In this document: positions 18,248 to 19,816 of the stretch, piece after piece
Layout of the letters: the number at the start of each line of letters is the position of its first letter
Numbering within the stretch: the first letter of the stretch is position 1
Source of the DNA: Ignavibacteriota bacterium
GTDB taxonomy: Bacteria > Bacteroidota > Ignavibacteria > Ignavibacteriales > Melioribacteraceae
Length of the DNA stretch: 64,000 bases
Reading direction: 5' to 3'
Assembly (NCBI GenBank): GCA_013112585.1
Contig: JABFGH010000007.1
Span: 124,001-188,000 of the forward strand
Position numbers and translations under genes: made by a program
The notes under the pieces: generated by a model
The model's input: the letters and a program-made list of their open reading frames with translations, nothing else
Database searches by the model: none
Told to the model about the DNA's origin: nothing

Positions 18248-19336
18248 ATGAATTTTAAGAAAAACCTAATATTTGGTGTCGTTTTAGTCTTTTTGTTTCT
18301 TCCGCAAAATTATTATTCGCAAAATAAAATTTGTGATTACTGCAAAAAAGAAATTACAAGTGGTAAATATTTACAAGTTGAGGGCAAATACTTCCACGAA
18401 AATCATTTTATCTGCAGCCATTGCAGTTCCAAAATTAATGGCGGATACTTTCAGCATGATGGAAAATACCTGCACGATTACTGCTACAAAAATCATGTTC
18501 TTGATAAATGTGAAAAATGCTATAAACCTATTGAAGGCGCATACGTTACTTCTGCCGGCAAAATCTATCATAAAAATTGTTACGAAAAACATATTGCTTT
18601 AAAGTGTAATTTGTGCGACAGCAATATAGACGGGAACTACTATAAAGATTTTTGGGGAAATATTGTTCACTGGGAACATTTAAGCAGCAGCAAGGAATGC
18701 GAATATTGCCGCAGAATTATTTCATCACAAATAACAAATGGCGGAAAGGTATTTACTGACGGCAGACACATTTGTAATTTATGCGGTAAGTCATCCGTTA
18801 CAACCAAGTATAAATCAAAGCAATTGTTTGATGAAGCAAAATTCAAATTGCAGTTGGAGGGAATAAAAATCGGCGATGTTGAAATTGAATTGCATTTAGT
18901 CAATTTAACCGAGCTTAAAAAAATTGTTAAAGACAACCATAAAAATAATGTTCGAGGATATTCAACTTACAATTACCGGAAGCAAAACGGTAAAATTATC
19001 AACCGTGAGTTTGATATTTATATTCTCAATAACATGCCTCAAAGTTACTTTATAAAAGTTGCGGCGCACGAGCTAATGCACATTTGGCAATACCTAAACT
19101 CCCCCGAAGATAACAACAAAACACTTTCCGAAGGAAGCTGTGAATATGCCTCTTACCTGGTTGTAAAAAAATACTACGGCAAATATTATGATTTTATAAA
19201 GAAAAACTTTAATGAAAATGAAGACCCGGTTTATGGCGGCGGATTCAAGAGGGTAAAAAAATTTGTTGATAAAAACAGCAAGCGGGCATGGCTTAAACTT
19301 TTAAAATCAAAAGAAGATTTTCCGCGGGGATATTGA
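18248..19336 (+). CDS. Secreted LIM-domain DA1-like metallopeptidase
   Basis: 362 residues with a signal peptide (to about residue 25). Cys/His-rich treble-clef modules of LIM type follow. The first uses C29, C32, H50, H53, C56, C59, H76 and C79. The second is C88, C91, H108, C111 and following, and further CxxC pairs lie at 120/123, 151/154 and 176/179. The C-terminal half carries a gluzincin-type active site: HELMH at 274-278 and Glu295 in LSEGSCEYAS, the arrangement of the plant DA1 peptidase that follows LIM domains there too. So this reads as a zinc peptidase with LIM-like modules acting outside the cytoplasm. It is transcribed alone, away from the PpiD-like gene. Its partner and substrate are unknown. 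The LIM-plus-DA1 reading is by motif only. Confidence 0.8.
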   Translation: MNFKKNLIFGVVLVFLFLPQNYYSQNKICDYCKKEITSGKYLQVEGKYFHENHFICSHCSSKINGGYFQHDGKYLHDYCYKNHVLDKCEKCYKPIEGAYVTSAGKIYHKNCYEKHIALKCNLCDSNIDGNYYKDFWGNIVHWEHLSSSKECEYCRRIISSQITNGGKVFTDGRHICNLCGKSSVTTKYKSKQLFDEAKFKLQLEGIKIGDVEIELHLVNLTELKKIVKDNHKNNVRGYSTYNYRKQNGKIINREFDIYILNNMPQSYFIKVAAHELMHIWQYLNSPEDNNKTLSEGSCEYASYLVVKKYYGKYYDFIKKNFNENEDPVYGGGFKRVKKFVDKNSKRAWLKLLKSKEDFPRGY

Positions 19337-19449
19337 GAGGACAATTATAAAGGGAAAAGGGAAAAGGAAAAAGGAGAAAGGAAAAATTAAAACATGCTGG
19401 TTGCTGGATGCTGGATTCTTGATGCTGGATACTGGTAGTGGTAATGCTT

Positions 19450-19530
19450 AAACTTCCGCCGTTATTTCGATACATCCCAATAAAGAGCATTGGGATTACT
19501 CAATAACCGGCTAGCATTTTTAAAATGTGA
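19450..19530. repeat. Palindromic repeat, copy A
   Basis: Begins AAACTTCCGCCGTTATTTCG and contains a hairpin with stem CCCAAT/ATTGGG, then TTACTCAATAACCGGCTA. Copy C at 19703 is a near-identical 81-bp direct repeat 253 bp away. Confidence 0.9.
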
Positions 19531-19612
19531 ACGGAGAAAAGAGATAAATGTAACCTGCCAGCCGATATGCATGAGGAAAAATTAATCTACTCGCAAAAAG
19601 ATGCAACTAAGG

Positions 19613-19656
19613 TGGTTGAGTAATCCCGTAATGCGGGATGTATCGAAACAACCGTC
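19613..19656. repeat. Palindromic repeat, copy B (inverted)
   Basis: Matches the core of copies A and C on the opposite strand (GATACATCCC and GGGATTACTCAA read on the minus strand). Its stem is CCCG/CGGG instead of CCCAAT/ATTGGG, so both arms changed together. Confidence 0.8.
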
Positions 19657-19702
19657 ATAAGGGATGCTAGATACTAGTATTGGAGTTGGATACTGACTGC
19701 TC

Positions 19703-19783
19703 AAACTTCCGCCGTTATTTCGATACATCCCAATAAAAGGCGTTGGGATTACTCAATAACCGGCTAACATTTTTAAAAGGTGA
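19703..19783. repeat. Palindromic repeat, copy C
   Basis: Direct copy of the element at 19450. The hairpin arms are CCCAA/TTGGG. The remainder of the gene-free stretch 19337-19816 holds purine-rich GGGAAAAGG-type runs at both edges (19348-19385, 19786-19815) and a GCTGGAT-like minisatellite (19395-19440). I see no gene in it. Confidence 0.9.
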
Positions 19784-19816
19784 AATGGCAAAGGCGAAAG
19801 GTGAAAGGAAAAATAA

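Follow-up and report, generated by a model that had tools for sequence, protein, structure and literature searches.

The window analysed here is a stretch of 64,000 nt from an Ignavibacteriota bacterium (assembly GCA_013112585.1, contig JABFGH010000007.1, positions 124,001-188,000 of the forward strand), and it carries a complete gene for a LIM / DA1-like peptidase (Table 1). The gene stands alone, with a divergent gene for a SurA/PPIase-type protein upstream and a convergent TonB-dependent receptor gene downstream, and it is the sole LIM and the sole DA1-like match in its own genome (E 0.001). Along the encoded protein, a hydrophobic segment ending in SQ (residues 24-25) is followed by five Cys/His units between residues 29 and 179 and a 178-residue domain at residues 185-362. 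The Pfam LIM profile (PF00412) matches above its cut-off in two stretches (E=2.4e-13, the best at residues 29-81), and the protein follows the LIM pattern CX2C-X17-HX2H-X2-CX2C-X16-HX2C with two zincs. The Pfam DA1-like profile (PF12315) likewise matches in two stretches (E=1.1e-9), scoring 38.4 bits where the cut-off is 25, and 41.6 bits with neighbouring stretches of the frame. The best of these, residues 232-305, spans positions 60-130 of the 213 profile positions, hence the profile is matched only in part. NCBIfam gave no match for the window protein up to E=1. The window protein is a member of the DA1-like family (PF12315), with a LIM domain and a LIM-like module preceding the peptidase. 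The combination of LIM-like modules with an HExxH/Glu peptidase had been proposed beforehand, and both Pfam matches above cut-off confirm it; the residues named at that time, H274 (19067-19069), E275, H278 and E295 (19130-19132), are exact.

Table 1. Features of the LIM / DA1-like peptidase gene, in window positions. A1 is the alignment of close relatives described in the text.
Feature	Position	Strand	Evidence
Whole gene for the LIM / DA1-like peptidase, 362 aa plus stop, including a putative signal peptide	18248..19336	+	ORF, ATG start, Pfam, alignment A1
Putative signal peptide, residues 1-24, proposed cleavage before Gln25	18248..18319	+	Hydropathy and SQ, by heuristic; Q25 in at least 90% of A1
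Zinc unit 1, C29 C32 H50 H53, first half of LIM domain	18332..18406	+	Pfam, A1, unit parser
Zinc unit 2, C56 C59 H76 C79, second half of LIM domain	18413..18484	+	Pfam, A1; last two ligands by eye
Zinc unit 3, C88 C91 H108 C111, single treble-clef unit	18509..18580	+	A1, unit parser
Zinc unit 4, C120 C123 H141 H144, first half of LIM-like module	18605..18679	+	Alignments, unit parser
Zinc unit 5, C151 C154 C176 C179, second half of LIM-like module	18698..18784	+	Kept in 81/81; by eye from alignment
Gluzincin-type peptidase core, residues 185-362	18800..19333	+	Model pLDDT 96.0, pTM 0.91; nearest folds
HELMH zinc-binding/catalytic motif, residues 274-278	19067..19081	+	Sequence, A1
Glu295, proposed third zinc ligand	19130..19132	+	81/81
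Tyr329, proposed transition-state tyrosine	19232..19234	+	81/81

The layout is well conserved among relatives. Alignment A1 comprises 21 of 25 listed proteins together with the window protein, found by protein or profile similarity and not by an HExxH pattern. Left out were a fragment (L015), a protein without a start (L017), a paralog (L024) and a near-copy (L033), and earlier also the fragment L021 and the protein L029, a CxxCH-rich protein of another kind matched by the same similarity search. Invariant in A1 are H274, E275, H278, E295, G296 and Y329 and, in the zinc units, C29, C32, H50, C111, C120, C123, H141, H144, C151, C154, C176 and C179. Such invariance of catalytic and unit residues indicates that the layout is not due to chance. 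A scan of genome contigs with the pattern AHEL[MF]H[VIA]W yielded 78 loci in many phyla. Five were dropped as truncated or masked (L102, L106, L111, L114, L116), and the remaining 73 with the window protein and seven more proteins form a set of 81. Identical in 81/81 are H274, E275, H278, E295, G296, Y329 and C151/C154/C176/C179; since the scan pattern itself selects for HExxH, conservation of this motif is biased in the 73 members from genome contigs, and that of E295, G296, Y329 and the last unit is unbiased. Zinc unit 4 is absent from the shortest proteins (L109, L110), and the outer units are variable, with counts from 0 to 7 given by a simple parser, which is prone to misread unusual units. 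In the window protein the parser ended units 2 and 5 on an earlier D, and the last two ligands of unit 2 and the ligands of unit 5 were therefore taken by eye from the alignment.

Predicted structures place the two halves of the protein in known folds. The AlphaFold2 model of the full-length protein (21 sequences) has a mean pLDDT of 89.8 and a pTM of 0.78, and the peptidase core was modelled on its own from 74 sequences (Table 1). H274, E275 and H278 are predicted to lie in a helix at residues 265-284, and E295 in a helix at residues 291-306. The best Foldseek matches of the full-length model were LIM chains, from PINCH (1.9e-7), LMO2 and TES. With the core alone Foldseek gave no match under E 0.001, which suggests that the core is distant from every solved peptidase. 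Among the best 50 VIA entries for the core (Z 8.6-11.5 over 139-165 residues, rmsd 2.8-4.4), nearly all are metallopeptidases by title. They include LTA4H (5ni2, Z 11.5 with an rmsd of 3.2 over 153), oligoendopeptidase F (2h1n, Z 11.1, rmsd 3.4 over 158) and collagenase H (4ar1, Z 10.6, rmsd 3.4 over 151), as well as insulin-regulated aminopeptidase, lugdulysin, many ACE2 entries and MATCAP. A Z near 11 denotes moderate likeness. These metallopeptidases have HExxH plus Glu sites, thus the core is likely a compact form of gluzincin, not close to any of the solved families. The features of a clan MA gluzincin were all found, i.e. an HExxH helix, a Glu on the next helix and a matching core fold. 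The core fold and the HExxH...E site are shared with gluzincin metallopeptidases in general, whereas identity over the parts aligned by VIA is 7-16% and the compact 178-residue core here stands behind a LIM array. The comparison covers families M1, M2, M3, M9 and M30, of which M1 and M30 stand in the entry titles. Sequence searches of the PDB gave no DA1 entry among the matches listed (in one search, the best 60 of 65). Profile membership, LIM fold and a gluzincin-type peptidase of clan MA all support the DA1-type layout of the original prediction. Absence of a LIM-like fold or a peptidase of a different clan had been named beforehand as speaking against it, and neither occurred in the models or fold searches.

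The comparison with plant DA1 rests on the Pfam profile and a published description, rather than on an alignment with plant sequences. In the accessible text of Dong 2017 (PMC5322733), the plant motif is given as HEMMHX15EE; HELMH-x16-E of the window protein agrees with it, and E295 corresponds to its second Glu. Shared with plant DA1/DAR proteins (PF12315), as far as that text describes them, are a LIM domain, a LIM-like module of four zinc-ligand pairs and a C-terminal HExxH-x16-E peptidase (PMC5322733). According to the same text, activity depends on the LIM-like module, cleavage requires the histidines of HExxH, and changing a Cys of the LIM-like module to Tyr did away with peptidase activity (PMC5322733). 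The bacterial protein differs from plant DA1/DAR in having a signal-like N-terminus in place of ubiquitin-interacting motifs, five zinc units and no sign of ubiquitin control. Only 28 residues, signal-like in character, precede the first zinc unit, leaving the protein without ubiquitin-interacting motifs before LIM, and Pfam gave no match to such a motif up to E=1, a weak test for a motif so short. Searches of the genome with ubiquitin and E2 profiles were empty, but all 14 controls were equally empty, so they lend no support to the statement of the original prediction that ubiquitin is absent. Export and the lack of room for N-terminal ubiquitin-binding motifs suggest that ubiquitin probably plays no part in the window protein.

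Bacterial LIM-DA1 proteins are already known. The accessible part of Dong 2017 points to Roseiflexus proteins of high similarity that have four CxxC/H pairs, citing Burroughs 2011 (PMC5322733). By that description, these proteins likewise combine LIM and peptidase in a bacterium. The portions available of two further papers (PMC9498896, PMC3710099) do not discuss bacterial DA1-like proteins. By protein similarity, relatives occur in 20 of 58 sampled genomes, own genome counted. With the DA1-like profile (E 0.001, each phylum sample counting its seed genome), matches were found in 11/296 genomes of the window's phylum, 40/132 of the Zixibacteria phylum (37 above cut-off), 14/292 of the phylum of a 'Cyanobacteria' MAG, 12/294 of the phylum of a Planctomycetota MAG (6 above cut-off), 3/198 of the phylum of a Spirochaetales MAG and 1/297 of the phylum of a 'Proteobacteria' MAG, the last being the seed genome itself. 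The fractions 20/58 and 11/296 are not directly comparable, since protein and profile searches differ in sensitivity and sampling. PF12315 searches gave no match in any of the 14 named control genomes. Pfam bits (62.8 for L119, 58.2 for L120, 57.3 for L125, 57.0 for L079, 56.7 for L121 and 48.4 for the cyanobacterial-phylum L127, against 38.4 for the window protein) single out no single clade as nearest to plant DA1. Around HExxH, L127 presumably resembles plant DA1. The original prediction raised the possibility that the fold predates its use in plants; the broad distribution among bacteria and the diversity of architectures fit this part, without showing the direction of descent. Relatives in many other bacteria suggest that a design of LIM zinc fingers with a peptidase arose before the plant pathway and is in wider use.

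A many-cysteine protein outside the cytoplasm needs an explanation by disulfides or metal, as the original prediction pointed out, and the composition of the units answers this in part. Fourteen of the 15 cysteines fall in five four-ligand units, the remaining one being Cys298. Units 1 to 4 are completed by histidines, which points to zinc, and unit 5 consists of cysteines only. In the set of 81, H or C stands at position 53, H, D or C at position 76 and, where the position is present, mostly H at 108. Disulfides would have no need of the unit histidines, so judging from the ligands the units likelier bind zinc. A Cys239-Cys298 disulfide has no application to the window protein, which has Ser239. 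Across the set C298 is present in 65/81 and C239 in 23/81 (21 proteins have both, 44 only C298 and 2 only C239), and every one of the 14 proteins without a signal peptide has C298 but not C239. Such a disulfide is possible in the 21 exported proteins with both cysteines.

The bacterium appears, from the N-terminus of the protein, to export this DA1-like LIM peptidase. The signal peptide had been predicted, and the heuristic applied here agrees in finding a signal-like N-terminus, a 12-residue stretch with a mean hydropathy of 3.36 followed by SQ. Signal peptides were called by hydropathy and motif; by a rule applied to the ORFs of the window, 18 of 51 look signal-like, five of them, this gene included, with AQ or SQ. 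By the heuristic, 65 of the 81 proteins have a signal peptide, two have a lipobox (Planctomycetota L109, L110) and 14 have neither. The last group comprises nine proteins from Spirochaetota, two from Bacteroidales, one from Fusobacteria, one from RYN_339 and the paralog L024. Hand correction changed six rows: upstream TTG or GTG starts supply a signal peptide for L062, L066 and L070, and the lipobox calls of L006, L064 and L076 are false. L104, without a clear start, was counted by its open frame. Because the sampling started from exported queries, it probably captured too few non-exported members, and 65/81 is not the share in nature. The paralog lies in a genome of the window's family (G027), where the exported-type L004 (1486-2571) accompanies the short L024 (1495-2226) without a signal peptide. 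RYN_339, a 'Cyanobacteria' MAG (L056, L103; genome G333), has three DA1-like profile matches, one of them under cut-off, and at least one of its DA1-like proteins looks exported and one does not.

Compartment has likely changed more than once, as several label changes are forced on the trees. On the core tree the compartment label needs at least five changes, and starred branches force three changes of the signal-peptide label. A wider quick tree of 81 rows (12 added, 12 of the first set dropped) contains a mostly non-exported group of 11 rows (7 without a signal peptide, 2 with, 2 unknown; SH-aLRT 99) and a mostly exported group of 70 rows, with seven changes needed and two forced. L137 and L138, labelled lipoproteins by eye in this tree, belong to the phylum of the Spirochaetales MAG and have a single zinc unit and a lipobox-like N-terminus; they share their phylum with members without a signal peptide. 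Many family members look exported, judging from their N-termini. Exported DA1-like members were not found described in the open-licence literature among the matches listed, and as far as that literature shows, it is new that many members are apparently exported and that compartment changed repeatedly. Signal-like members have 2 to 7 zinc units by the parser, more than those without a signal peptide (81 proteins, p 9e-8, with rows that are not independent because nine of the 14 without a signal form one Spirochaetota clade). A rule tying export to more zinc units was rejected: long arrays are not peculiar to exported members, and cyanobacterial-phylum proteins without a signal peptide have 5-6 units.

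Gene neighbourhood points to no substrate. Flanking ORFs were clustered over the 78 loci and the window, and among the top 14 clusters listed the recurring neighbours are lineage-local, with no conserved partner gene found. The window's own neighbours were not seen in the top 14 clusters, among the places listed. The largest cluster covers 18 loci at varied distances and strands. A divergent MATE exporter lies at 74-153 bp in 10 Ignavibacteriota-type loci (one protein Pfam-checked). In four Calditrichota-type loci (L085, L091, L093, L097), an L091-type transglycosylase/transpeptidase (one protein Pfam-checked) lies 16-193 bp upstream on the same strand, and the two genes perhaps form an operon there. 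An L064-type serine/threonine kinase begins 67-199 bp downstream on the same strand in L064, L065, L106 and L110; at L064, three ORFs of this cluster stand in a row, the first of them Pfam-checked.

We suggest that the window protein is probably a zinc endopeptidase of the DA1-like family that works in the envelope, outside the inner membrane, and uses its LIM array to select substrates, a reading based on sequence and predicted models. The protein would be exported by its signal peptide, and outside the inner membrane the Cys/His units would fold around structural zinc, in line with ligand conservation and the predicted LIM fold. A single catalytic zinc might be held by H274, H278 and E295, with E275 as general base and Y329 stabilizing the transition state, the latter role being taken over by assumption from gluzincins in general. 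In the predicted fold the LIM array is joined to the gluzincin core, with the last two zinc units likely forming a fixed part adjoining the peptidase. The outer units, variable in number, would most likely bind particular proteins of the envelope or the cell exterior and bring these to the active site. In our view the last zinc unit and the core, both kept in 81/81, would make up the working unit, with the outer units acting as a recognition arm that can change. A broader scenario, which we put forward tentatively and consider doubtful as a whole, sees an old bacterial DA1-type toolkit moved repeatedly between cytoplasm and envelope. Swappable one-zinc modules (1 to 7 by the parser) would serve as its recognition arm, the exported form being commonest among recovered members. 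A cytoplasmic branch, with candidates in the cyanobacterial phylum, would have led to plant DA1, and ubiquitin control would have been added afterwards.

Alternative readings concern the N-terminus, the control of the peptidase and its activity. The N-terminal segment might be an uncleaved anchor tethering the peptidase to the inner membrane, facing the periplasm, since a hydrophobic segment alone is no proof of cleavage. Lipobox forms in Planctomycetota (L109, L110) and, by eye, in Spirochaetota (L137, L138) also suggest anchored versions. We consider an anchor unlikely for the window protein, however, given the conservation of Q25 at the proposed cleavage site (Table 1) and the occurrence of [AS]Q after a hydrophobic stretch in four further ORFs of the window that look signal-like. 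Outside the cytoplasm, zinc units rich in cysteine would be sensitive to redox and metal, and the array could sense envelope zinc or redox and keep the peptidase latent, with release on loss of zinc or oxidation of cysteines. The need for the LIM-like module in plants and the description of plant DA1 as a latent enzyme, in the accessible text of PMC5322733, would fit such self-control. Yet the same last unit occurs in all 14 members without a signal peptide, some with equally long arrays, and no metal-homeostasis gene is among the top 14 recurring neighbour clusters, making a latent sensor rather improbable. LIM domains are typically adaptors and no substrate is known, but an envelope LIM adaptor with an inactive catalytic site is very unlikely given that H274, E275, H278, E295 and Y329 are invariant in A1, which was gathered by similarity and not by an HExxH pattern.

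For the favoured reading of an exported peptidase, a large bacterial family with the DA1 core of catalytic domain and zinc modules, apparently exported in many of its members, would offer small, expressible proteins to study the effect of the LIM-like module on the peptidase without ubiquitin. The family also bears on the view of LIM arrays as essentially eukaryotic in the LIM literature, where the accessible portions describe LIM as an ancient eukaryotic domain (PMC3305314) and a single bacterial LIM domain found in 2007 (PMC1781342).

A mobile origin of the gene was considered and set aside, as no relative was found in viral contigs, phage records or plasmid records (phage and plasmid records searched with the window protein, plasmid records also with L127). 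The GC content of the gene is 0.337 against 0.356 for the window, at the 29th percentile of equal-length stretches, and its third-position GC (0.356) is by little the highest of seven compared genes. Such ordinary base composition does not indicate recent transfer. The nearest tree rows are Zixibacteria proteins and not the main Ignavibacteriota group, and no starred set holds the gene. The intergenic region behind the gene (19337-19816) contains a 109-nt direct repeat, 85% identical, at 19445 and 19698, as well as inverted repeats with GGGATGTATCGAAA occurring three times (0.39 expected) and GATGCTGGATAC-type short repeats. These are perhaps the debris of a decayed repeat element.
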